Source: Liolophura sinensis
Lineage: Eukaryota > Mollusca > Polyplacophora > Chitonida > Chitonidae
NCBI RefSeq assembly: GCF_032854445.1
Contig: NC_088301.1
Location: 13,512,281-13,576,280, forward strand
Direction: 5' to 3'
DNA length: 64,000 bases
The translations under genes and the position numbers were made by a program. A model generated the notes under the pieces. That model made no database searches, had not been told where the DNA came from, and worked only from the letters and a program-made list of their open reading frames with translations. Position 1 is the first letter of the stretch, and each line of letters begins with the position of its first letter. This document shows, piece after piece, positions 6,788-64,000 of this stretch.

Positions 6788-7074
6788 TTATCTGTTCATG
6801 CTGTCTGACCTCTTCTCTTTTTTCTTTGTATTATCCATTATGCCCTCCAGCTTCCTCACATAAGTGTCATGGTTGTACAATGTGGCTAACAGCCCATGTT
6901 CATTTTTCGCATTTCCAGATGCAGAGTAATCAATGGTGTTCCCCTTGAGGTCGGTCATCCGGCTGTCCAACGCGCTAAGGATTGCATTGCCGGCGCAAAT
7001 GTCCCACTTCTTTATCAGCGTCACATGGACGTATGCATCGACTTCTCCTTTCACCAAAGCCAATGTCTTGTAAC
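6788..7074 (-). CDS. BPNT2: BPNT2 exon 5 (stop)
   Basis: It encodes residues 255 (part) to 349 and the stop. The acceptor is CATTTCAG|GT. It contains [19 protein letters not shown] with the catalytic-site Asp of WDxxAG, then GLLAT and a basic tail. The stop position agrees with the family length. Confidence 0.95.
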
Positions 7075-10000
7075 CTGAAATGTGCATGTACATGTTGGTC
7101 AAATCCTGTCCACATACGTAGTACTAACACTAAATGAGCGATGCACAGAATTTAAGGTGATTTACAGTGTCTGTGATGTTAGTGATGACCGCAATGTGAA
7201 GTACAGTGTTTGTAGTTGGGGTTTCATAATGTCTAAATAATTAGTGATCACAGTAACGTGAAATACAGCGTATGTAATTGGTGCTTCATAATGTCCAACT
7301 AATTAATGATGACGTTAATGTAAAGTAGAGTGTCTGTAGTTGGTGTTTCATAATGTCAAACTAATTAGTCAAGAGAGTAATGTTAAGTACAATGTTTGTA
7401 GTTGGAGTTTGATAATGTCAAACTAATTAGTGATGACAGTAATGTAAAGTACAGCATATGTAATTGGTGTTTCATAATGTCCAACTAATTAGTCAAGAGA
7501 GTAATGTTAAGTACAGTGTTTGTAGTTGGAGTTTCATAATGACAAACTAATTAGTGATGACAGTAATGTAAAGTACAGCATATGTAATTGGTGTTTCATA
7601 ATGTCCAACTAATTAGTCAAGAGAGTAATGTTAAGTACAGTGTTTGTAGTTGGAGTTTCATAATGACAAACTAATTAGTGATGACAGCAATGTAAAGTAC
7701 AGCGTATGTAATTGGCGTTTGATAATGTCAAACTAATTAGTGATGGTGTAATGTAAAGTACAGTGTATTTAGTTGGTGTTTCATAATGTCCAACTAATTA
7801 GTGATGGCAGTAATGTGTAGTGCAGTGTAGGTAACTGGAGTTTCATAATGTCAAACTAATTAGTGATGACGTAAAGACGTAAAGTACAGTGTATGTAATT
7901 GGAGTTTCATAATGTCAAACTAATTAGTGATGGTAGTAATGTAAAGTACAGTGTATGTAGTTGGTGTTTCATAATGTCAAACTAATTAGTGATGGCAGTT
8001 ATGTGAAGTACAGCGTAGGTAACTGGAGTTTCATAATGTCAAATTAATTAAAGATTTCAGTAATGTAAAGTACAGCGTATGTAATTGGAGTTTGATAATG
8101 TCAAACTAATTAGTGATGGCAGTAATGTAAAGTACAGTGTATGTAGTTGGAGTTTCATAATGTCAAACTAATTAGTGATGACAATAACGTAAAGTACAGT
8201 GTATGTAGTTGTTGTTTGATAATGTCAAACTAATTAGTGATGGTGTAATGTAAAGTACAGTGTATTTAGTTGGTGTTTCATAATGTCAAACTAATTAGTG
8301 ATGGCAGTTATGTGAAGTACAGCGTAGGTAACTGGAGTTTCATAATGTCAAACTAATTAAAGACGGCAGTAATGTAAAGTACAGCGTATGTAATTGGAGT
8401 TTGATAATGTCAAACTAATTAGTGATGGCAGTAATGTAAAGTACAGCGTATGTAGTTGGAGTTTGATAATGTCAAACTAATTAGTGATGGTGTAATGTAA
8501 AGTACAGTGTATTTAGTTGGTGTTTCACAATGTCAAACTAATTAGTGATGGCAGTAATGTAAAGTACAGTGTCTGTGGTTGGTGTTTCATAATGTCAGAC
8601 TCATCTATTGATGGTAGTAATGTAAAGCCAGCTAAAAATAAAATGGCTCAAGCGCTGTGAGCAGTGCAGCCCAGCTTGTGGCAGTTAGATTTGAACACAT
8701 ATCTTTAGTGGTCAAAAACTTAATTTGTGGCCTAATCAGAGGGGGCTCCTCACAATTTGTGTTTCTTCAATTTTACTTCTGAAAATTCTGCCATAACATA
8801 CCAGCACCACCAGCAGGAACGACAATGGTTTTCTCTCCAAACGCTTTCTTCGCGACCTCCTCCACTTCCCCTTTATGTGACCTTGACACTATGATCTTAG
8901 TCTGGTCATTCTCATCAATTTTCTTCTCCTTAGATTTCTTCAGATTTTCTGAGTGACCATATCCAGCCCATGCCCAAACTGGTAAAAAAAAAACAGAATT
9001 AGGCAATCAGTTAGTAATACAAAGGATGCATACACTGCAGTCTAATGAATGAATGCTTGGTGTTTAATGTCATACTTAACAATTTTTCAGTCATATGATG
9101 ATGAGAATTCCTTAGGCGTATGCACATAAACTGCGATTTCTTGTGGCAGGGCGAGTCCATGCCGCCAAAGTGCTCATGCCACAGCATCATGCCGAAGACA
9201 TCAAACATGACACTCCACTCAGTCACATTATCCTGACACCAGGCCAACAAGTCTTGTCTCCTTGCTATAATCTCTTAGTGCTGAGTGCCAAGCCAGGCAA
9301 CAGCATGTGACACTTTTAAAGTCTTTGGTATGACTCAACCTGGGTTTGATCCCGCGGTCTCCCCACTCCAAGATGGGTGCTCAAATCATTAAGCCACAGG
9401 AGTTGTACCACCACAGATATATACACAAAATATACATCAAAATCAAATCAGCACCCAAATTCCATCAGAATGCATGATAGTCATCCATTAGCGCCATAAT
9501 GACTGTTACCTGTTTCTTTCTCAAATGGACGATGTATGACCCCAATGGTCGGTTCCCCCTTTATCGCCACACATACCATTGTTGTCACATATTGGGTCAG
9601 GTTTTCTGATAACACACAAAGTATCAAAGGTTTAAGAAGTTCATTTATTATCATACTTCTCACATGATGGTCCACCTGAAAAATGTACCTGGTTAACCAC
9701 AACCTACAATGTGGTGCAAAATGGCAAAATTGCCAAAGCCTATGTTTAATACTTTATTTTGCATAATTATTTTATATTTAATTTCCTTTTCAAAATCAAA
9801 AAATTTTGAAAACCATTGGCATACTGCTTCTCATGAACATACATATATGAATATTGATTCATCTGACTGTTCTTTAAAGGCAAAGAGTGAGTGATTGATT
9901 GAGTGAGTGAGTACTTGGAGTTTAACTTCGAACTTAACAATTTTTCAATCATATGACGGCATAATGACGCCGAAGGAGTCCTTAGAGTGTACGTAATGTA

Positions 10001-13000
10001 GCTCCTTGTTGCAGGACGGATTTGCTCGATTGCTCTTTTATCTAGTGCTGCCTCACTGAGACCACTTACTGAAGGGAGCCCTACCCAAGCAATTAGTGCT
10101 ACGGGTCAACCAGTTGTTGCACTATCCCCTTAATGCTGAACACCAAGAAGTTTCAACTTCCTCTTTTAAAGTCTTAGGTGTGACCTTACCCAGGAGTGAT
10201 CCTGGATCTACCGCTCCCGAAACGGATGCTCTACCAACTTAGCTATGGGTCCAGTAATAAAGGCAATGAAAACATTAAAATTAATTAGATGAAAGACCAT
10301 TAAAAACTCCACCAGGAAACAGTTGGATTTATTTTTTCACAGTTTGCATCTGAATATTTTATTCTGTGATGGCCTTTTCTGACCACAGTGGGACCAGTGA
10401 CATCACATAAAGTTTTTATAATTTAACACACATTAAACTGCTACATATCATCATTCAAAATTCACATGCATATATCTCTATGGATGCCTTCGCTGATTTG
10501 ACCTTGAAACGAATTATTTCAGGCAAAAAGTATAGATGTGACGTCACTGATACCTTCTGGATCACAACAGATCACCACAGAATCTGATCTTTTAACACAA
10601 TTTTACTCTGTTAGACAAATTCTAAAAAAAATAAATCCAACAATTTTCTTGAACAGTTTGTAATGGTCTTTCATCTGATATATACTTTATTTGAGAGAGG
10701 TCTTTGCCTTTAACATGTTACTCAAGAATTTTTGTATATCATGGGGGTCAGTCCTGTGGGTGAAGGAAACCACAGCGGATAGGGGAAACCACAGTGGCTA
10801 TGGTAATCCACAGACCTTTATCAAGTTACTAACAAAATTCCCCCATGATGATGACGCCTGCCATTCTGGTAGAAGTATTGGTACATGGGCAATTAGGGTG
10901 TGTTTTTCAAGAAAGGCCAAAGCGGGGACTGAACCCCTATGTTGTTTGCGATGTCTAATGGTTGTAATTGTGAACCTTACCACGGACCTACCCTCCAGGC
11001 TACAGAAACATGCTGATTGGTTAACAGCGCAGATTTCTTGGGTTAAACCATACCATTTTGTCACCCTTTACCTAAAATTCACCACAGCTTAGACATAGCC
11101 TGGACTGGACTTGTTTCTCATACCAGCCAATCAGAAACGATTCTGTATCCCCTTTAATATTAAGAACCAATGTGTAATGTTACATAGACTACACCCCCCC
11201 CCCCCCCCAGCACTTCCCTAACACACAGAGAACCCGTTCCCCCACCTGTGTACTCCTGTGTGGCATCCAGAGGGTCAATCCAGACAGCAATGTCACTCAC
11301 GGGGATCTGTTGATCACTCTGTATCAACCTTTCCACCTCAGCCAGCTTTCTTGTCACGTCCTTCACCCTCTCCAGGCTGATTGGAGCTGTCTCATGCTCC
11401 TCAGATATCACCTGTAAATAGCATGGCATTTCTTTGGTAAATTCAGCCATTATCTGTGGAATTGTTTTGTTTTCCCCTTTGGAGATAAACTAATGGAAAA
11501 CAACAAATGGAGTGTCAGTGGGTTGAGTGCACCTGGACTACATGAAAACTTTTTTTTTCTTTTTGGACTATAAAATGTAGTCAAATGCTTGAATTGTAAG
11601 GCGAGCCATATACTACTTTAGGACTAAATGATGTCAGAATTTTTTTTTTCCTTACACTCAAACACAATATTTAATTATGTTAGTACAGCTGATTGATGTG
11701 TATGGAAGGACACTAGACTAGTATAAAACTTCACAAGGATTCTTCTAAAAGTGAAAACAACACATCACTGGCATTTGACACTCTCAATACCATCCAGAAT
11801 GCTATTTTCTTGTTTTTGACAAGAGAATAGTACAATGTTGTGTGCATCCAGTATAACATTACACCACGTGTACACTGCTGCAGGGTATTCATGACAATAT
11901 TGATTTATTTATTTGATTGGTGTTTTATGCCGTACTCAACAATATTTCACTTATATGATGGCGGTCAGCAATATGGTGGGTGGATACCGGGCTCGGAAAC
12001 CCACGACCATCCACAGGTTGCTGCCAGACCTTTCCACATACTTTATGGCTGTAAAAAAAAGTTGTTCCATGAAATATGCAAGAAGACATTTGTATACATG
12101 TACACGTGTTACAAGCCTTTAATGAGGCCACTTGTTTGGATCGAGCTTGTCAAGAGGATTCTCAAGAGCAGACTGGTTTCCTTCCACCAATAATTACATT
12201 ATCTCACTAAAACATTCTTGAGACGAGCTTAAAACACAATCAACATAAATTTCAAATCAGATGTAGTTGAAGAATTGTCTGACAAGTATGAATGCTACAC
12301 ATGTATGTTTCTTTCAGCTTTAGCGGCCTACACAGTATAACAGCTTTTTAATTATTGATCCCTGAACACCTGACTCCTTTCCCTTCTGTTACAGTGAACA
12401 GTGGGACCCTAAAACTTCTCAGTTACATCGTCATGGTGTCTTCTAGATCTTCTCTTTTAAACAAATTTCAGATACATGCATATGTGTCTAATTATCCGTT
12501 CGCTTGGAGATTTAATGCTGCTCTAAAAAATTATCTGATGGGGTTTGAAATTAAGGCTGCCTGGATGCAGATATGTACCCAGATAAAAGCCAATGCCCGC
12601 ACAAAAGTTTACCTGTGCAAACTTTTTGTGGATATGGGTGCATCAGTATACCCACAGGTAAATTCTGTCGCAATTTACAAATGCTCAGACAGTTACCACA
12701 ACAACACCACCTGTTTTTTTAAATGGAGTCTCTGATTTTAGTTTGGGGCCATCCTCCGCCAAACCAAATTTTAGCCTAACCTAATGTCAGAGCATCCCCG
12801 GACTACTTCCGTTCATGGTGCTTTGCACAATCATGACACTGGCAAAAGCAACAAGGTTTGCGTCTAAAACACAAAATCTGACCATAGTTGGATTTTGAAG
12901 GTGACACCACTGTGGCCGGTGAGAGAGTGGTGATATTTTGTTCCTATCAACCATAGCAGCGATGTAGGGAAAATTTAATGGGGAAACATGCTTCATTAGT

Positions 13001-14572
13001 GTTAATGCTTGACCGTGCATGCAACTGTGTTGATACCTGGGCTAAACTGAAATGTGGAGAGGTAAAATTTCACCACTGAGCTGGGTAGTTTTTGCGACGA
13101 TGGCACATAGGTTAGTTCAGTACCCACTGTGGCTGGTCCAGGTACATAATTATGAATTACATTGGTACAAGTTGCCCAGTGCTCCTAGTTCATTAGCCTA
13201 CTTGTATATAAAGCTAAAAGAGGTACACAAGTAACACATGCAGTATTGCAGTACAGTACTGCAGCACAATAATCTGCTGCCCTCCTGATTTGATGTATTT
13301 ATTTTTTTACTTGATTGGTGTTTTATGCCATACTCAAGAATATTTCAATGATTCAAGACCGTGGACATCTGGGCATTTGCCGTTTTACTTGTGACAACAC
13401 GCATACTTGCTCAAATACGGAAGTGAGTGAGTGAGTGTTTGGGGTTTAACGTCGTACTTAACAATTTTTCACTCAAATGACGATGAAGGAGTCCTTAATG
13501 TGCATGTACATGTAATGTGCCTACTTGTTGCAGGACGTATTTCCACCACTCTTTTATCTACTGTTGCCTCACTGAGACGGCTTACCAAAGGTAAGTAAGC
13601 TGACCCACCCGAGCCATTATACTGATATGGGTCAGCTACAACTACCTCTTTTAGAGTCTTAAGTGTGACCCGACCCAGGATTGACCCTGGATCTACCGCT
13701 CCCAAAGCGGACGCTCTACCAACCATGCCATGGGGGCCGGTCATACGGCTGTGAAAACATTGTCTAAATAACATGGGAGTTAATACAAAACTTTGTTGAT
13801 ATTCACAATTTATATGTGCTGTGCACATTGTTCTGCTGCCTTGCATACAATAATTTCTCATTATTTTCAGCCATACTTCCCTAAATATCGTGTTGTTCAC
13901 TTCCCTATACCTTCTTTCTGTCCGCTTGCCGCTGACTCGTACCAGCGAAGTGTCCCAATGTCCGCAGTCTCAAATACAACAGCCAGTATCATGGTGGGAG
14001 GTAACCGGGCAGAGCCCAGAGGAAACCCCAGACCATCTGCAGGTTGCTGACCAACCTTCTTACGGAGAGGAAGCCATCATGAGCTTGAGCTGGAGCTGGA
14101 CTTGAACTCACAGCTACCACACTGGTGAGCGGCTCCTAAGTCGTTGCATCGTGCTGGCGTGCTAACCACCTCGGTCCTCTCCTGATATAAAGATTTAAGC
14201 TAAACCTTAATGATTATGTTCACATCTAAGCAAGACAAGCATACTAACCCTTAATCCAGGGAATGCTTTTAACATCCCGTACATTATTGCACGATGCGAT
14301 TCCATATCCCCTTGTGTCAGCATTTCCTTGGCTCCTTCGGCAGTTTTTCCTTTCACCTTTTGGCCCAGAGATCCCCCTGTTCGAATGGCATACACGCTGT
14401 CACCTCCACGTTTAGCAAGTTCTATACTGACTGTTAAAAGTTCTTTCATGCTAACTCTTTGCTCTTCTCTACTAGACAACGGCAAACCAAATAAATACCA
14501 CCAAAGACAAATCATGACAAAAATAGCACCGATAACCCCAAAGGGGTTCATCCTGACGTTTACCGCTGCCAT
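6788..14572 (-). CDS. BPNT2: BPNT2 (IMPAD1/gPAPP): Golgi 3'-phosphoadenosine 5'-phosphate phosphatase, 5 exons
   Basis: Exons in transcript order are 14572-14249, 11411-11246, 9605-9510, 8978-8802 and 7074-6788. Intron phases are 0,1,1,1, every junction is GT-AG, and the CDS totals 1,050 nt (349 residues plus stop), close to the 359-residue human protein. It belongs to the lithium-sensitive inositol-monophosphatase superfamily and hydrolyses PAP to AMP in the Golgi lumen, removing the by-product of sulfotransferases. Visible features: a single N-terminal membrane anchor at about residues 12-30 (type II topology expected); E112-E113 (metal ligand region); WIDPLDAT at 152-159 with D154 and D157 as metal ligands; and WDICAG at 278-283 with D279. 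The C-terminus is Lys/Arg-rich. It lies head-to-head with UBE2W, 227 bp apart. No frame break is seen, so the gene looks functional. Confidence 0.96.
7160..8628. repeat. 62-bp minisatellite filling BPNT2 intron 4
   Basis: About 23-24 head-to-tail copies of a unit near 62 bp fill most of this 1,727-bp intron. Each copy contains a recognisable TTTCATAATGTCAAACTAAT block; spacing was checked at about 7225, 7287 and 7349. Units differ in a patterned way (AGTCAAGAGAG, AGTGATGGTGTAATG and GTAACTGGAG variants), forming higher-order repeats of 124 bp and about 250/500 bp. The array stops about 85 bp from exon 5 and 170 bp from exon 4. Confidence 0.95.
8802..8978 (-). CDS. BPNT2: BPNT2 exon 4
   Basis: It encodes residues 196 (part) to 255 (part). 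The acceptor follows a long pyrimidine tract (TTTACCAG|TT) and the donor is GCTG|GTATGT. It holds the IVSRSH block and VPAGGAG, typical of BPNT2. The middle is Lys/Glu-rich (about residues 206-222), a variable surface loop in the family. Confidence 0.95.
9043..9412 (-). mobile_element. tRNA-headed SINE, family B type, in BPNT2 intron 3
   Basis: On the minus strand a tRNA-like head with a B-box-like GGGATCAAACCC leads into a body containing TGTGACTGAGTGGAGTGTCA. The end is CTGAAAAATTGTTAAGTATG followed by (ATTC)n. The body shares GACGGCATGGACTCGCCCTG-type sequence with a copy near 27.37 kb. Orientation matches BPNT2. Confidence 0.75.
9510..9605 (-). CDS. BPNT2: BPNT2 exon 3
   Basis: It encodes the end of codon 164 and residues 165-195, including YVTTMVCVA and GVIHRPF, both strongly conserved in BPNT2. 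The acceptor is TTATCAG|AA and the donor ACAG|GTAACA, phases 1 and 1. Joined to exon 2 it restores [13 protein letters not shown], matching the human QEYTEDLRKYVTT. Confidence 0.95.
9886..10254 (-). mobile_element. tRNA-headed SINE, family B, near full length
   Basis: On the minus strand a tRNA-like head (TAGAGCATCCGTTTCGGGAG) is followed by a body with GAGGAAGTTGAAACTTC and TCTCAGTGAGGCAGCACTAG. The end is GAAAAATTGTTAAGTTCG with (CACT)n. Copies at 13.42, 20.53 and 30.29 kb share head and body. It lies in BPNT2 intron 2 and abuts the inverted-repeat element at 10,257. Confidence 0.85.
10257..10713. mobile_element. Long-inverted-repeat non-autonomous DNA element, copy 1
   Basis: The ends are inverted copies of each other over about 85 bp, sharing AAAGGC at the tip, then AGATGAAAGACCATTA and GTTGGATTTATTTTTT. 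A second copy sits at 31,776-32,258. The right tip reads TTAA; the left tip reads ATAA here but TTAA in copy 2. No ORF of transposase size is present. TTAA flanks recall piggyBac-type insertion, but the tip sequence is not a classic piggyBac end, so the superfamily is open. Confidence 0.75.
11194..11245 (-). promoter_or_regulatory. G-run cluster at the BPNT2 intron 2 donor
   Basis: In the transcript, the first 52 bases of intron 2 contain G runs of 5, 3, 3 and 15 (the last is the C15 tract at 11194-11208 on the plus strand). Intronic G runs next to weak 5' splice sites are known hnRNP H/F-type enhancers, and four runs could also fold as a G-quadruplex. The function is inferred. Confidence 0.35.
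11246..11411 (-). CDS. BPNT2: BPNT2 exon 2 (metal-binding motif)
   Basis: It encodes residues 109-163 and the first base of 164. The acceptor is TTTACAG|GTG. It carries the SEEHE acid pair and [12 protein letters not shown], the core metal-binding motif. The donor is ACAG|GTGGGG, phase 1, a weak U1 match followed by several G runs. Confidence 0.95.
11903..12048 (-). mobile_element. Family A tRNA-SINE, 5'-truncated
   Basis: The plus strand shows the reversed 3' tail (TTTATTTATTTGATTGGTGT) followed by GCCGTACTCAACAATATTTC and body sequence with CCCACGACCATCCACAGGTT. The tRNA head is missing. Confidence 0.85.
13295..13355 (-). mobile_element. Family A SINE 3'-end fragment
   Basis: Only the tail is kept: TTGATTGGTGTTTTATGCC and ACTCAAGAATATTTC on the plus strand. 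Confidence 0.7.
13423..13742 (-). mobile_element. Family B tRNA-SINE, near full length
   Basis: The plus strand begins with (GAGT)n, then GTTTAACGTCGTACTTAACA, and ends with the reversed tRNA-like head (CCCAAAGCGGACGCTCTACC). It is closely related to the copies at 9.9, 20.5 and 30.3 kb. Confidence 0.85.
13975..14180 (-). mobile_element. Family A tRNA-SINE lacking its 3' tail
   Basis: The reversed body (GCAGAGCCCAGAGGAAACCC) and reversed tRNA head (GGACTTGAACTCACAGC B box, GTGCTAACCACCTCGG A box side) are present, but the GAATATTTC tail is absent. It ends about 70 bp from BPNT2 exon 1. Confidence 0.8.
14249..14572 (-). CDS. BPNT2: BPNT2 exon 1 (start, membrane anchor)
   Basis: It encodes residues 1-108, starting at a true ATG (14572-14570). 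The order is a short cytosolic N-terminus, the hydrophobic anchor [19 protein letters not shown], then the family block [15 protein letters not shown]. The donor is AGG|GTTAGT, phase 0. The following residues resume as FPGLR|VISEEHE, matching the human order. Confidence 0.95.
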
Positions 14573-14799
14573 GCTGGAACTTTGATGCCGATATGCTTCT
14601 ACTAGCCGCGAAGCGTATTTGATTTAAGTTTTGATCAATATTTTTAAAACACTGCAAAATTATTTGAAAAACGGGCCTGTTTACATATTTAAAGTCAAAT
14701 AGGAATATTTACTGTCTCCTTCTAACACAAACAGAAGTAGACTAATAAAGAATAAAAATACGAAACGCTCGCAAGAAATCAAACGCTGGAGAAACAAAT
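14573..14799. promoter_or_regulatory. Bidirectional promoter interval between BPNT2 and UBE2W
   Basis: Only 227 bp separate the two divergent start codons, so both 5'UTRs and core promoters must fit here or overlap the first exons. The sequence is mostly AT-rich with scattered CpG (near 14,600 and 14,760-14,790) and no TATA box at a usual distance from either ATG. TSS positions cannot be read from sequence. Confidence 0.65.
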
Positions 14800-49376: not shown

Positions 49377-50212
49377 CTACTGGTACGTGATGCTGTCAAT
49401 GTTGGTGTCGTGACCCTCTTTTACGTCGTCCGAGTTCGACGGCTTGTCCAGATTATTCATTATATTGTCCAAAGAGAGATCTTTTTGCACCGGGGCTGAC
49501 ATTATATTGTTTACATCCTCCTTTTCGATGATGTAGTACTCAGGAGACGACTTATCATCACAGTTTTCGGTATCTTGATCCGTGTGATAACTGTCGTCTG
49601 CTAGATCCATTTCCGAGTCACGTGACAGGGACGCCGGTTCGTCTGGTGTACTGGCCTTCGTCAGACTCTCCAGATCATTATCTGAAGGACTCGAGTCAGA
49701 TTGCCACAGTTCCTTCTGCTCTAAGTTATCGAGTTCTTTGATCGTTTTAATGGTGTCCGGACTGGCCATGCTATCGCTGAACGCAAGTTCTTCGAACATG
49801 TCGTTTGGTGGAGGCTCGTTCTGCGCCGAGGAACTGTCAAATCGTATCGGTGGAGTCGTTGTCTTTCGTGGAAACTTCGTGGCCGTTGTCTTGACGGGGA
49901 GATGGGTGGGTTTTGACGGTGATCGAGTTATCTCTCCGCAATACACGTCGCCATCTTGGCCCCAAAACTGGTCAAATGGTTTGCTGAGCAAAGCGTCGTG
50001 TTTGGAATCGTCCTGGTCATCGGACAATTCCTTTGGGGCGTCGTTCACCAGCAAATTCTCTATCTCCTCCCTGTCGATTGCATCCTTTTTTAAAATTGAT
50101 TTTTTCTTTGGTGGCGGCGGGTCTAGGATCGACGGACTGGATTTTCGGAGGATTGGTACCAGCAATTCGGAGCTCTGGCTCGTGTTCAATGAGCGTGTAC
50201 TCCAGGTGTTTC
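49377..50212 (-). CDS. Shab: Shab terminal coding exon
   Basis: The acceptor is TTGTTTCAG|GA; phase 1 joins the previous exon to give ...[12 protein letters not shown]. It encodes 277 residues: a Pro/Lys block ([12 protein letters not shown]), then a long acidic Ser/Asp/Glu-rich tail ending NIDSITYQ. Two TAG stops stand in tandem. No known domain is recognised. A frame-shifted 94-codon reading and a 171-codon antisense frame are shadows. Confidence 0.75.
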
Positions 50213-56200: not shown

Positions 56201-59200
56201 CTGTAGTGATGGTTTTATATCTTGTTTGATTGGCGTTTTATGCCGTACTCAAGAATATTTCGCTTATATACAACGACAGCCAGCATTATGGCAGGAGGAA
56301 ACCGGACAGATCCCTGGGAAAGCCCCGATCACCCGCAGGTTGCTGGAAGACCAAACCTTCTTTGTTTAGAATCTTGTAATCGTGCCAGGCACAGGGCTCA
56401 TGATTCATATTCGGTGCAGAATATGCATATCTGGTTAGGTAATCCGACGGAAATACACCCGATCAGCAAGTCATCTCCATAATCCATGCAGTCTAGACTA
56501 CACGCATTCGTGGAAGAATGACGTCGTTTGTTCGCATCTATGTCTTGCTGACTTGCTTGTGGTTTACAGCCAGAAAGGATTGTCTATAGACTATACATGT
56601 TAAATTTGATCATACTGTCCTGCGTTGGGTATGTACTTCGTGCTAAACGACATGATTATAATGAATCCTTAAACATGCAGCCCTTTCCCTATCATTTTTA
56701 TTTACTAATTATGTTTTGAATGTGTCATAATTTCATTTTGTACGCGCATACGCAAATCCATGAAAAGCTGCTACCTCACCAATGGAATATAACATGACAT
56801 AGTATTTTCGGTTCGTCAGCATATACTTCTCTACCAATATTATGGTCCTATAAATTGGCCATAGCAACGCGCGTTACGCAACGCATTTACTCTGGTGACA
56901 GATGCCTTCATTATTCGTATATGCATCTGTACAGGCTCTCATCGAAGGTGATGCAGACGCGTAAAGGGCATCATGCCAATATTCGATCGTACTGCACACC
57001 TGATCTTTGTCGGTGTCAGACAACAGAACAGCAGTGACCTTGATGCCGGGTCCACAATTCAATATTCGTGCCAGAACCCTCAGCTACATGTCAACATTGT
57101 GCATTAACACAGCCACAAGGCACAAATTCCGTTCCACGGCCAGTAGCCGATAAAGTCATAGAAGACACAAGAGTCGGCGAAGTAATTACGCTAAAATTGA
57201 TAGTTTCTACACCTAAACGTTATTTCTATTATAGTTGTTTTTGTAAATCAGTCAGCTGACGAGGCTGTTGTCAACTGACAAGTCATGAATATACCATAAA
57301 TACATTGTGAAAATACATGGTCTAGCAAGTTTTTAATTCAAGAACATTTTTGGACGTTAGCAGGATATCGGATGAAGTGTACGATGCTTAAACCTGTACG
57401 TACTAAGTATCAGTGGCTTACACAGAGGCTGTAACTTACGGGAAATGTAACTGTCATAAAGAGACATGCTGCGTTGCATCCAGTTCGTAGAACATGCCTC
57501 TGGTTACTTGCTATTAAATATACTCCTTCCAAAAAAATTAAACTAGCTAGAGAAGTGAGTCTATCTAAACGCTACTTTACCAGCAAAATGTTCAATTCCA
57601 CATTAGTAACAAGTCTTGATTTCCACATAATAAACGAAGCTCTTTGATCAAAACTTACTAATAAAACCCTCTAACCCCAAATTACCAGTAAACCCTTCCA
57701 CCTCCATCCTCCAATACCACTCGAATACAACGTATCACTAGACACGCATATCTATACTCCCCTAAACACTGACACAATCTCCACAAAGAAACGACATAAA
57801 CAGCATAATTATTGGCACTGCAATAGTTCACTCAAACATGCTTACATAATGTAACTGAGCACCTACCTGACTTTGGATTTGCTACAAGATGGTAGTGGGC
57901 CAGTCTCCTCCCAGTGGCTGGGCTACTGTGAAGACGACTAGCCAATGACGTGGCTTTGCGGAACTTAGACTTAACTTTAGCGGTGGCCTGTGATGCTGGC
58001 GAATGAAGGTTGTCTGTTGAACGGAAAGTCCATTCTATGTCCCCGTCCACGAATCGGGGATGTTTGACGTGAGACATGGATTTGTGGCGCTTCAGTGAAG
58101 ACTTTTGCTTTTGTCTATCCCGATCCCCGCTGTGAAAAATCGGGGCCGAACTGTAACCACTACTAGTTTTTGCACAATCTGAGTTGCCATATTTCCCTCT
58201 GGGTGACCGAGGGCATTTGCCCGCAGCTGAGGTAGAGGTTGCACGTTGCCATGTAGCAGTAAACCCTTCGTCCAAACGTTGCACAATTTGTTCGGAAGGT
58301 CTCTTCACGGCGCCCCCTGTCGCCGATCTACATGGGCGAGTTATCTGCCTTGGCGAGGAGGTCGGACTGTCTCTCTGTTTTTCCGCTGGACTATCAAGAT
58401 CATTAATAACATCATCATAGGTGGGTAATTCACGCACAGGCTCGTCTAGTGGATTTACGTACAAATTTTGTTTCGAATTTTCTGCTCCGTGTGAAGGAAT
58501 AGATGGGCTGTTCTGAGGATGAGTTAAACAACTAGTGTAAGTGTCACTACTAGCGGTGCTGCTTTGCCGACCTAATGGCTTCATTTCTATGCTGGACTTG
58601 CGTTTCTCCAACAAATCATTCTCGGCTATCTCCATGAACGGTCCCAGCTCCTGCCAGAACAAAACAAGCACCAGACACGACCAAATCAAATGTGGAAATG
58701 GGTCATCAGAAACAGCATCAGTATTAGCAGTCTCAACATTAATCGTAATAATAAAGACAATGCCTATTTATGTATAAAAAGTTAACACCTACATGTATTT
58801 ATCCATCTTGGAATCCTGTTTTAACGACGAACGGAAGAAAATGCGTAAGCATGAGTGCAGAAAACCGTGCACAGCCCACTGGTAAACATAGTAATTAGCA
58901 AGGCACCTGATCAACCACCTGATCAACCTCCTAACTTTAGGGTTAAACCGAGCGAGCCACAGTTGGATTCGAAAACGCGGCATCTTCAGTCGAGGGCTAT
59001 AGTAGACATGACCCAGGCGTTCTAGACTGCCCAGCCATCAAGAAGCCAAGTAAAGTTGATACAAAATATATTTAGTAAAATGGAAAAGAACTAAATTTTT
59101 TAGCACACTGCACATATTAATGTATTTCTTTGTCGTAACACCCACGTCAGCTAAAACAGTTAAAGTGCTCGCTGGCATGACCAATGAGGCTGGCCGTGTT

Positions 59201-61057
59201 TGAATCGACTTGACGTTGCACCTTTGTCAGGAAGTTCAGCAGTTGCGATGTTTTACTTTGGATACTCCCGTTTCCTCAACCTTCAAACCTGATTAGCTTC
59301 ATATAAATGAAAAACAATCGCAAATTAAATATATGTATGTATGAATTAACAACGAAGAAGACTGCACAGAAAAAAGTGTTTCATACTTACTTACCTGTCA
59401 TCAGAAGCTAGAGAACGTATGAATGCAATTAATAATCACACAGTATCGGGTTAACTTATAAATATGTTAACAGTTATTAAAAATTGGCACTCAGTGAAAA
59501 GAAACGTGTCGTTCAACATGACAAACGACACCACATTATTCAGTTGTGCACAACAATGCGGTTCCATTTCACGCGCAATGGTAACTCGGGTCCAAGCTGG
59601 ATTGATGAAATGCTCTTTTGCAAGGCATGGGTAATACGTTACTGGTTTGTCCACAAAACGTCATCGCAAAAGTTTGGAAGAACAGTAGTCTACACTACAC
59701 AAAAGTTCCCCATTCTCAAATATGACAATGCAATTACCAAGATTATGTAATAAATGTGATTTGTCTCGTAGGTCAATAATGGGTTGAAGTATTAAATAAT
59801 ACGTCGATTGTGGGCGTAACTAGGAGAATAGAATCGTGCAAGTCATAAGCTAAGGCCTGTTGATCAGTTAGTCAGTCAATGTAGCAACGTAGGTTGTTTC
59901 CAAAGCGTTGCTTTCCAGAAACATGCAAAGGTCAAAGGTCGTCGTTTGCCTTGGCATGTTGAACCTACCTGTATGTTACTGTTCAACATGGCTGGCTGCA
60001 TGGCAGTCATTCGCTGCAGGGATTCCTCGTCTACGTCCAGTAGGTTAGTAGTGCTGGGGTTAAGTGGAGAGTCGTGCAGGCCACAAACCTTACCCTCTGA
60101 GCAATCCGACCCCTGGACAGGTCGCTGAGGCGCCACGTTCATCTTCACCACACATGGCGCCGGGCTGGTACACTTACTGTCGTTGCTCTGACAGTCGTAG
60201 TTGTCTCCCCTTGGAGCATCCGAGTTGACGTCCATCAGGTCAATGCTGCGGGCGAAGGCGTCTCTCAAGTTCACTGAGTGGAAGGAAACTATACTGCCGT
60301 TCCGCTTAGCTCTGTCCAAAGCTTCACGTCGCTTCAGCGCTTTCTCTCTACGCATCTGATCCTTATAGAACTCAGCAAAATTGTTCACTATGATTGGAAT
60401 CGGCAGAGCAATAACTAGCACGCCACATATACAACACACACTACCGACAATTTTCCCCAGTACCGTCTTAGGGTAGATGTCCCCATATCCCACGGTAGTC
60501 ATGGTAATAGCTGCCCACCAAAAGGTCTCTGGGATACTGGAGAAAAGAGTTTCATGTTCGTCTTTTTCAGCAAAATAACACAAACTCGAGAACAACAAAA
60601 TCCCGATCGCTAAAAACATCATGAGAAGTCCAAGCTCCTTGTAACTTCTTTGCAATGTGTACCCAAGGGACTGCAATCCCGTGGAATGACGAGCAAGTTT
60701 TAAAATTCTGAGAATCCTCATAATACGGAAAATCTGAACGACTCTGCGAACATTTTGAAACTGTGAAGTCGTGCTCTTGTTCGTCTCAGTTAGTCCTAGT
60801 GATATGAAGTAAGGTAAAATGGCAAGAAGATCTATGATATTCAGAGGTCCTTTAAAAAATTTCCATTTGTTAGGCGAGGCCCAGAATCGGAGCAAGTATT
60901 CCAAGCTAAACCAACCTATGCATACGGCTTCAATAATAGCCAAGTGAGGGTTATCGGTAGATTCGTTATTGTCTTGGCGTTGAATGTCCGGAATTGTATT
61001 AAGTGTCAGAGCTACTGTGGATAGGACGATGAACAGGACCGATACGATTGCCAACAC
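49377..61057 (-). CDS. Shab: Shab/Kv2 voltage-gated K+ channel, S1 to C-terminus (3 exons; N-terminal exon outside window)
   Basis: Exons in transcript order are 61057-59969, 58650-57867 and 50212-49377, with phases 0 (entering), 0 and 1, all GT-AG. The visible product is 902 residues from S1 to stop; the T1 tetramerisation domain should come from an upstream exon. Kv2 channels carry delayed-rectifier K+ current in neurons and muscle, and cluster at ER-plasma-membrane contacts. Diagnostic features: S4 with seven basic residues, TVGYGD filter, PIP (not PVP) in S6, and the Kv2-specific proximal tail [11 protein letters not shown]...DAFARSI. Orthology is to Drosophila Shab and vertebrate KCNB1/KCNB2. 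The two tail exons are assigned by splice phase, position and a PRC-like motif, and are less certain than the channel core. Confidence 0.93.
52845..53085 (+). repeat. Segment bounded by (GTGA)n and (GACT)n
   Basis: A roughly 180-bp unique-looking stretch lies between a (GTGA)4 run at 52847 and a (GACT)6 run at 53060. Tetranucleotide tails are typical of SINE ends in this window, so this may be an unfamiliar SINE-like unit. No tRNA head was recognised. Confidence 0.3.
56224..56352 (-). mobile_element. Family A tRNA-SINE, 5'-truncated
   Basis: The reversed tail (TTGATTGGCGTTTTATGCCG, TACTCAAGAATATTTCGC) and part of the body are present. Confidence 0.85.
57867..58650 (-). CDS. Shab: Shab exon: C-terminal tail with PRC/FFAT-like motif
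   Basis: It encodes 261 residues after the acceptor TTCTGGCAG|GAG; the donor is TCAG|GTAGGT, phase 1. The tail is Ser/Arg-rich and probably disordered. Residues 31-43 of the exon (58560-58522) read [13 protein letters not shown], aligning with the vertebrate Kv2 PRC motif (SMSSIDSFISCAT). An LPTY (LPxY, Nedd4-type) motif follows in ELPTYDDVI. Phase compatibility with both neighbours supports membership of the gene. Confidence 0.85.
58522..58560 (-). other. PRC / FFAT-like VAP-binding motif in Shab tail
   Basis: [13 protein letters not shown] matches the Kv2 PRC motif SMSSIDSFISCAT at S1, S4, D6, S10, C11 and T13, with Y for F at position 8. In mammals this phospho-FFAT motif binds VAPA/VAPB and tethers ER to plasma membrane. 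Function here is inferred. Confidence 0.6.
58651..59968 (-). other. Shab intron between core and tail exons, 1.3 kb
   Basis: No coding sequence is seen. A duplication ACCTGATCAACC lies near 58910, and a family C SINE-like piece (TACTCCCGTTTCCTCAACCT, ACCTGATTAGCTTCATATAA) lies near 59265-59305. Confidence 0.5.
59969..61057 (-). CDS. Shab: Shab exon: membrane core S1-S6 and proximal tail
   Basis: It encodes 363 residues starting [14 protein letters not shown] after the acceptor TTTGTAG|GTG. Approximate segments: S1 1-21, S2 38-60, S3 71-90, S4 102-123 (R104, R105, R111, R114, R117, K120, R123), S5 140-163, filter TVGYGD 188-193, and S6 201-226 with PIP at 219-221. The first codon is GTG, an internal Val, not a start. 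Vertebrate KCNB genes have, to my knowledge, an intron at the same place before S1. The donor is CAG|GTAGGT. Confidence 0.97.
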
Positions 61058-64000
61058 CTACAAAGCGTGAATAGAAAAGTAGAAATAACAGCAAAAAAAT
61101 ATAATAGTAATAATAATACTTCGAATAAAACATGTATCATATTAGAATATTTTAGGGTAGATATCAAGAGATGGGAAAGTTTCAGAACTTGCTTGCTGAA
61201 ATATGACTGTCGTGGTGTGCAATGGTGTCTTAAAAGGGTTTAGGCGCGTGGAATTTGGACCAGGTTTGAAGCCCAAGGAATGTGCCACAGAGGGATTGTG
61301 GGAAGGGACTGTCAGTTCAATCGACATACTAAAGGCGGATACAGCGGCACATCCAGGTGGCGCTTTAGAACAAATCAGGGGAGGTAATACACGATGACCC
61401 AGAGGAGAGTTGAGACGAGAGAAGGGGAGGGGGAGGGGGATAACACATGGGAATTCGATAATCTCGGCCAAGACAGAGAGAAAAAGCATCAGTAGTGTGT
61501 TGTTGTATACATCTGTAACTTGGGGGTTACACTAAGCATGCTAATTGTTGCGCAGCAGGTCCCGAAGTATAGAGTAAACAACATATGCGACACACAGTTT
61601 GCATAGGTTATCACAGAGTGACGAGGAAAAGCCCGGTGTGTAAATAACAAAACATTGTAGCACGCTGAAAGAGAGAACATTCACCAACAGCAGACATGGG
61701 AGAAGAGAGAACACGGTTAGTACAAAAACAAGAACACAAACGAGAAACGAAACTCATCATTTGCAAAGGTTAAGAATCACTTTTGGGTGTTTACGAACAA
61801 AAATAGGGTGGGGATTCCGTACCGTATAAAAACTAATTTATTTTGTTCTTTATCTACAGATATATATAGCAAATTCTTTTGTTTTATTTTCAGCAAGGCT
61901 AAATTTTTCACTTGGTTAACTTTCGAATCTTTTGAAATTCTTGGCGTTGTAGAAAGTTGTTTATATTGAATCATGCGGAATGTCGTGTACGTGATACACA
62001 ACATGGGAATACCACATAACGCACAACGTCATCCACATTCACATGCTACATTTAAACAAGCAACAAACAAGAATAATGACAAGATGCTGTTAGTGAATAA
62101 AATATTAGAAAGGTCTGATTTTCTTTTAAAAAAAATGAAAAATAAAATAAAAAAATACTAGCATATTTTTCCCCTAAGTGTTTAGATATTACGGGTTGTA
62201 AAAATGTTGAAAACTACGATGGCAAGGAATGTTCAATAAAACTACTAAATCTGCTTAAACTGATATCTGTTTATTTTTTTATATTATAGGATAATGCGTT
62301 TATCCTATACAGCAATTTATCATTTGCTACGTGTTCACGGTGAAGCAAAGAATTACTGGCTTGTTAATAAGTAATGCAAGTAACTGGACGTGATATGAAT
62401 TGTAAGAATTAATAACAATTATGTAACGAGAAGAAAACAATCCATAATTACTGGAATGGCGATACCACAGATGTGCTTTCCAGTTACAAGAATAATGAAT
62501 TGTTTCCAAATCTATAAATATTTATCCTCCTGAAAATGGTGCCATAAGTAAATCAATGATCTCAATTAGCGTGGAACAGACACGTTGAATATGTATGTAC
62601 GATCGGAGATTCCGGCCCTAGGCGATTTCAATATTTCTTACAAAGGGGCCAAACTCTGCTCACGCCATGGGAATTGGACTACCGAATGAATGTGCATGTC
62701 CCAATTAATTCTAGTTATGCTGCCGATCCACTGGGAACTCATAGAGCAAATGGCGGCAATCAGATGCAGATTCATACAAAAGCAGCAACTGTAAATAACC
62801 ACATCAGAGGGTGATCACTTACGGCGTCATGGCATTTGGATGCAAAACATAAGAAAAACATTTAACTTCCGCCCATCAACTCTTCTTGTTATAAAATAAC
62901 AACTTTTTTTCTGAAATTCCGCATTTTTTGTGAAAGCAATTTTCTGTTCATATTATTCCAATTAAATATTTACATAAGGCTTTTTCTTCAAACAAAAATG
63001 AAGTGGAAGACTAATTCTAGTCTTCTCAGAAACTTAAATCGACAAGATTGCAATATGCATGCCTTGAGAATTGCAAATTCCACGCAGCCAATTAGAGTTC
63101 AAACACATTACATTAAGCTTTAGACACTGTTCCGGTCCAGCCTCTATTGGTTGACTTATTAACATGATGGTTCATAAAATTACTCACAAACCGTATCATA
63201 AATCTGTTAAATTTTTTTGATGTTGTTTTGTTTTTTGAAGTTGTATGAAAGCGTAATACAGTAATGAACCCTTTGTTACTGTTTCGCCGAAAACCAAGCC
63301 ATCTACAAGAACAGATGTCAAATGGAAAGTCAATTTTCTTGCCCGGGTTTCCTTTGACAGAGTTACGTGTATATTTCCATAAAACTGGGTGATTCAGGCC
63401 AGTCTAACGGCAACTTGACATTGGATAGCACATTTGTATAAGATAAGAATGATGCAGTCTGGAATAATGAATACCACTGCGATGTAGTTAAATTTCATAT
63501 TTAATTAAAACTGCTATATATAGGCTGTAAATCTTGTTAAAGTGCTGATTATTTATAACCAACAAAATTATCTCCAGTAAACATATACCTGTCGCACAAT
63601 GCTCATGTGGTACTGCAGTATCGAGTAAAGTAACAACATATGAGAAGCACATGGATTTTTTTTGGGGGGGGGGGGGGGGGGTAAGAATTACTTTCCAAGC
63701 AGGTTATTCTTGTTATCATGAACCAAAAAACAATGTCATCTGAAAAGGCACGGAAAAACAGCTTCGTCCATCAAAAATAGGTTACATCTCATTAGCATCC
63801 AGAAGACTATTGTCTTTATGAAAACATGTATCATATACCTATCTGTCTACGGCATTCGATACAAGCCAGGTTTTGAACAAACAAGAGGTTTTGTAGCAGA
63901 CGATGACGTCAGCACTCTTTCTGGGGATGTGATAGCGAATGACAAGGTGGTATTGTTCAAAACTGATTATTTTTTTTGAACAGTTATCATGGAGTAGGAT
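61058..64000 (-). other. 5' flank or first intron of Shab, no exon seen
   Basis: The Kv2 T1 domain should precede S1 but no frame here resembles it, so this is most likely intron. It has a G-rich tract near 61425-61440 (runs of 4, 5 and 5 G), a T8-G18 homopolymer junction at 63656-63681, and AT-rich sequence otherwise. Confidence 0.55.

Follow-up and report, generated by a model that had tools for sequence, protein, structure and literature searches.

A candidate phospho-FFAT motif resembling the core of the Kv2 PRC in the predicted tail of an invertebrate Shab channel

Results

Features of the locus

The window, by which we mean the whole stretch of 64,000 nucleotides that was analysed, has a G+C content of 0.396 and a CpG observed/expected ratio of 0.72. 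Pieces of an LTR-retroelement pol region lie in separate frames on the minus strand at 914-2147. Of these, 1683-2144 matched the RNase H-like domains of reverse transcriptase (3.2e-24), and 914-1390 gave a weak match to an integrase core that stayed below the cut-off (1.8e-05). On the same strand, 6788-14623 holds several exons of an inositol-monophosphatase-family gene, which we take to resemble the gene of the Golgi PAP phosphatase (BPNT2/IMPAD1). The Pfam family Inositol_P was matched at 6788-7123 (1.9e-11) and, below the cut-off, at 11160-11489 (0.0077), and was not matched at 14207-14620. A satellite-like array at 7179-8627 (62-bp unit, 23.4 copies, 84% matches) separates exon-like pieces of this gene.

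Most of a Shab (Kv2) gene also lies on the minus strand of the window, and its exons can be joined into a partial protein of 902 residues; we call it invertebrate on the strength of the preliminary description and of the appearance of the sequence. The core exon (59969-61057, minus strand) encodes S1-S6, the pore and the first part of the C-terminal tail, and ends at a phase 0 donor (ATACAG/GTAGGT, the slash marking the exon-intron border). The exon matched Pfam Ion_trans (9.1e-57), and its best match among PDB sequences was human Kv2.1 (9.2e-138), to which it is 77% identical across the core. Among the 43 PDB sequences matched at E up to 1e-30, Kv2.1 chains (9.2e-138 to 5.1e-137) were followed by Kv1.2-Kv2.1 chimeras (4.5e-80 to 6.6e-79) and by Kv1, Shaker, Kv3 and Kv4 (1.2e-69 to 8.1e-54), placing the S1-S6 core nearest to the Kv2 subfamily. 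A preliminary description of this DNA had called the gene a Shab, and these matches bear that assignment out. No T1 domain was matched by Pfam in the 20 minus-strand open reading frames of at least 40 amino acids listed for 61058-64000, where three chance-level hits only were obtained, and the first (T1) exon probably lies outside the window.

The stretch at 60380-60493 of the minus strand, which codes for the end of the pore and S6, matched the Rfam family RF00485 (K_chan_RES, potassium channel RNA editing signal) with 70.2 bits, where the gathering score is 51. As an editing hairpin the match was rejected: many of the consensus pairs are broken, and 126 of 200 shuffled sequences fold equally well (fold z 0.36). 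The match probably reflects coding homology.

Predicted tail exons

Two further minus-strand exons were predicted for the tail. Exon A (57867-58650; 261 codons and one base) has the acceptor TTGTTCTGGCAG/GAG in phase 0 and the donor AAGTCAG/GTAGGT in phase 1, and lies in a stop-to-stop open reading frame of 311 amino acids (57832-58767), which is longer than the longest frame (215 amino acids) found when 60 windows of 64 kb with matching dinucleotide composition were simulated. Since the donor of the core exon and the acceptor of exon A are both in phase 0, the core and the motif described below can be joined in frame, consistent with the earlier placement of the motif in a Shab tail exon. Exon B (49377-50212), the predicted last exon, has the acceptor CTCCTTGTTTCAG/GA in phase 1 and a stop codon at 49377-49379, within an open reading frame of 316 amino acids. 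Its acceptor, at 50212, is 7.7 kb beyond the donor of exon A (57867) and is compatible with it in phase; on strand, phase and splice signals, exon B would belong to the Shab gene. The encoded sequence of exon B is rich in acidic residues and in Ser/Thr.

Neither tail exon matched a Pfam family, and a comparison of exon A with PDB sequences returned no Kv2.1 and one chance match, to a carbonic anhydrase (E 2.4). By composition, 65-71% of the residues in the tail parts are disorder-promoting. The G+C contents at the three codon positions of exon A (0.50/0.52/0.45) exceed those of the adjacent intron (0.39/0.40/0.39) without the low second and high third positions of the core (0.48/0.39/0.53) and exon B (0.50/0.39/0.58), which counts against the gene model.

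A stretch matching the core of the Kv2 PRC

Exon A encodes, at 58522-58560 of the minus strand, 13 residues consisting of a six-residue flank (STASSD) and a seven-residue core (TYTSCLT), and the minus-strand translation agrees with the position given in the preliminary description. We compared these residues with their human Kv2.1 counterpart, SMSSIDSFISCAT, the letters of which were confirmed in PDB 9o10_B (residues 584-596), and with the mammalian Kv2.2 counterpart, STSSIDSFTSCAT (PMC9213790 Table 1). The reported gapless match to Kv2.1, with six of 13 residues identical and F replaced by Y at FFAT position 2, was reproduced; the stretch is nearer to Kv2.2, with eight of 13 identical.

The significance of these matches was assessed by the best ungapped BLOSUM62 score within the predicted tail of 644 residues, in comparison with 20,000 shuffles of the tail. 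The Kv2.2 score of 44 (runner-up tail site, 23) was equalled in none of the shuffles and the Kv2.1 score of 32 (runner-up, 15) in 18 of them; when shuffling was confined to the block of 101 residues around the stretch, the corresponding numbers were 0 and 3 of 20,000. Identities alone are a weak measure for Kv2.1: six or more occurred in 1,936 of the 20,000 shuffled tails, and eight or more to Kv2.2 in 11 of 20,000. Among the 62,446 stop-free 13-mers from all six frames of the window, the Kv2.2 score is unique (the next is 28) and one other 13-mer, a chance peptide, has the same Kv2.1 score. The proximal tail thus contains a match to the core sequence of the PRC.

The position of the stretch also resembles that in Kv2.1. 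Its first residue lies 141 positions beyond the N of NGSIVS, compared with 142 in human Kv2.1 (442 to 584, counted by hand from the alignments, as were all human positions). If placement along the tail were uniform, a fit within one residue would have a probability of roughly 3 in 632, estimated by hand. Counted from ARSI[DE]xMD, the distances are 125 and 129. We regard the position as supporting and not decisive, because the anchor was chosen afterwards and the other anchor differs by four residues.

The likeness ends with the 13 residues. The whole PRC comprises 26 residues (573-598 in rat, 577-602 in human), and the best place in the tail for that of human Kv2.1 is still the site of the 13-mer, with an ungapped score (19) that was equalled in 4,040 of 20,000 shuffles and is not significant; at the 13 PRC positions outside the 13-mer no residue is identical to human Kv2.1. 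The surrounding tail had been described as unalignable, and this was confirmed: a gapped local alignment of the two tails was equalled in 153 of 500 shuffles, one of the proximal parts was equalled in 97 of 2,000, and neither pairs the two motifs. The residues IEMK, encoded in exon A at 58579-58590 (minus strand), resemble the IDMR directly upstream of the 13-mer in human Kv2.1; this candidate needs a gap of six residues and was not counted. Because neither the 26-residue PRC nor the tails matched significantly, our claim is of a conserved core of 13 residues and not of a whole PRC. The proposed match to the vertebrate PRC/phospho-FFAT therefore stands in part: the 13 residues and their position make homology likely, and we infer from the sequence that the 13-mer is orthologous to the core of the vertebrate PRC.

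Likeness to phospho-FFAT motifs

The FFAT search pattern of Mikitova and Levine, as given in the available part of PMC3261905, has F/Y at position 2, [FYCILMVWH] at position 3, D/E/S/T at position 4, A/C/S/T at position 5 and D/E/S/T/G/N/Q at position 7, following an acidic residue. The core T1-Y2-T3-S4-C5-L6-T7 agrees with this pattern at positions 2, 4, 5 and 7 and is immediately preceded by D. With an aromatic residue at 2, S at 4, C at 5 and an acidic or phosphorylatable flank it has the form of a phospho-FFAT; with S in place of D/E at 4 it is not a conventional FFAT. T3 falls outside the pattern as there published, and the predicted tail contains no strict site; Kv2.2, an experimentally confirmed VAP partner in PMC9213790 (Table 1), likewise has T at this position. 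When position 3 was relaxed, two sites were found in the predicted tail, the motif and TFRSTDN, each with S at 4. The charge potential of the flank, by the rule in the same available part of PMC3261905, is 3.0 for the motif, 3.0 for Kv2.2 and 2.5 for Kv2.1.

We also scored the tail with a profile derived from 10 phospho-FFATs of proteins other than Kv2 (PMC9213790 Table 1, in which one of them, CaSR, is marked unconfirmed). Of the 33 candidate sites in the tail, the motif scored highest (12.51, followed by 5.29), a score equalled in 89 of 5,000 shuffled tails, and the human PRC (12.07) was the top site of the human Kv2.1 tail. The profile is a weak one: when each of its 10 motifs was left out in turn, their scores ranged from -3.76 to 17.59. 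A generic phospho-FFAT core with a flank charge of at least 3 occurred in 65 of 5,000 shuffled tails, and the case is therefore carried by the 13-residue match and its position, and not by FFAT-likeness alone.

Discussion

Proposed function and its alternatives

We consider it reasonably probable that the motif is an orthologous phospho-FFAT, which binds VAP when phosphorylated and so tethers the endoplasmic reticulum (ER) to the plasma membrane. In mammals the counterpart stretch is the VAP-binding site (PMC9213790, section 5; PMC6380216 and PMC10645748, available parts). By this mechanism, kinases would phosphorylate S4 and the flanking S/T residues, and the phosphorylated peptide would dock on VAP, a protein of the ER, at its MSP domain. 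In VAP complexes, F2 occupies one hydrophobic pocket and residue 5 another, and phospho-S4 contacts K50 and K52 of VAPA (PMC7610837, available part); in the window's channel, Y2 and C5 would occupy the two pockets and phospho-S4 would lie on the basic residues. A K50 mutant of VAPA blocks the binding of phospho-FFATs (PMC7610837), and phosphomimetics fail in most cases (PMC10460453). Four such motifs per channel tetramer would hold the ER against the plasma membrane and gather the channel into clusters at these sites. Phosphorylation of mouse S590 (rat S586), at FFAT position 1, drives the macro-clustering of Kv2.1 (PMC10645748, available part), and the corresponding residue of the motif, T1, is phosphorylatable. 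By analogy, T1, Y2, S4 and C5 would each be chemically able to fill the mammalian roles.

An unlikely alternative is that a disordered, Ser/Thr-rich tail contains a stretch similar to the PRC core by chance, or that an FFAT-like motif evolved there independently. The prevalence of disorder-promoting residues, the ease with which six identities or a generic phospho-FFAT core with a charged flank arise on shuffling, the chance peptide that ties the Kv2.1 score, the flanks that do not align and the frequency with which the 26-residue score is equalled are all as this alternative would have them. Against it stand the Kv2.2 score, which no shuffle reached and no other 13-mer of the window shares, and a position that differs from the human one by one to four residues, depending on the anchor.

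The motif could also be homologous but kept for a role other than VAP binding, as a phospho-switch of gating or surface expression or as a site for a basophilic kinase and 14-3-3. The RQSS at its start (GRQSST overlaps the beginning of the motif) and the residue at position 3 are compatible with such a role, which we nevertheless judge improbable: the conserved positions, namely the aromatic residue at 2, S4, the small residue at 5 and the acidic or phosphorylatable flank, are those that VAP reads, and the mammalian counterpart binds VAP. Shab tail splice variants are common, translation of the core exon could continue past its donor for 30 codons before a stop and the codon-position G+C of exon A is unlike that of the core, but that exon A is outside the main channel mRNA, as part of a minor isoform or misjoined here, so that most channels lack the motif, is very improbable in view of the phase-matched consensus sites on both sides, an open reading frame longer than chance and a spacing that nearly equals the one in human Kv2.1.

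Age of the tether

Returning to the reading of the motif as an orthologous VAP-binding phospho-FFAT, the tether may be older than vertebrates, as judged by comparing a single invertebrate gene with the sequences from mammals. In rat Kv2.1, the Cav1.2-association domain (CCAD; 478-486, with W484 and W486) lies in the proximal tail between the core and the PRC (PMC8609631, available part). No counterpart was found in the window, where no Trp occurs between ARSID and the motif. If tethering is shared, the recruitment of Cav1.2 may be a vertebrate addition, or may have been lost here. We lean slightly, at close to even chances, towards a history in which VAP-mediated tethering of the ER to the plasma membrane would be a non-conducting role that Kv2 already had in the last ancestor shared by this invertebrate and vertebrates, and in which CCAD-mediated Cav1.2 recruitment would have followed in the vertebrate line.

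The classic isoform of Drosophila Shab, with 985 residues, is not known to carry a motif of this kind; its absence there, if true, would imply loss or isoform-specific use in flies. Searches of viral_contigs and genome_contigs, which are not collections of animal genomes, with the core, the tail exon and the core alignment as queries returned no other animal Shab; the single match, with 23% identity, lay in a contig of a Bacteroides MAG (L001). The available part of PMC11325356 describes the PRC as an evolutionary addition to the Kv2 tail, with no date given there, and the paper that it cites (Jegla 2012, PMC3519636) does not mention the PRC in its main text. Among the matches listed from the literature, in the available parts of main texts, we found no PRC/FFAT of an invertebrate Shab and no 13-mer peptide, which does not establish absence from print; the available parts of PMC10948934, PMC6839919 and PMC10460453 contained nothing on invertebrate Kv2 tails.

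Mammalian Kv2 channels double as tethers between the ER and the plasma membrane, and with a candidate motif in an invertebrate the age of this tether becomes testable. If the motif is conserved in invertebrate Shab channels, the tether would be pushed back before the vertebrates, which would explain how a short stretch survived in an otherwise unalignable tail, and invertebrate neurons would offer a place to separate the conducting from the tethering roles.

Comparison with known motifs

The closest known systems are the PRC phospho-FFATs of mammalian Kv2.2 (STSSID-SFTSCAT) and Kv2.1 (SMSSID-SFISCAT), which bind VAPA/B at ER-plasma membrane junctions. The motif of the window shares with them the channel family, a nearly equal spacing between the pore module's end and the motif, eight and six of 13 identities, respectively, the residues S at 4, C at 5 and T at 7, and a flank charge potential equal to that of Kv2.2. 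It differs from them in having T for S at position 1, Y for F at 2, L for A at 6 and HP for DF after the core, and in lying in a separate exon. Beyond the 13-mer, neither the outer half of the PRC, which has 26 residues, nor the remaining tail aligns.

Other phospho-FFATs (PMC9213790 Table 1) are those of MIGA2 (SLTSED-SFFSATE), PTPIP51 (STGSSS-VYFTASS), VPS13D (TQFSDD-EYKTPLA) and STARD3 (GALSEG-QFYSPPE), with which the motif shares the aromatic residue at 2, S/T at 4 and an S/T or acidic flank. PTPIP51 and VPS13D are precedents for Y at position 2 (PMC9213790). These four are unrelated proteins and have A or P at position 5, whereas Kv2 and the motif of the window have C. We assign the motif to a known kind, the Kv2 phospho-FFAT, and what appears to be new, as judged by core sequence and position, is a candidate member of that kind in an invertebrate Shab.
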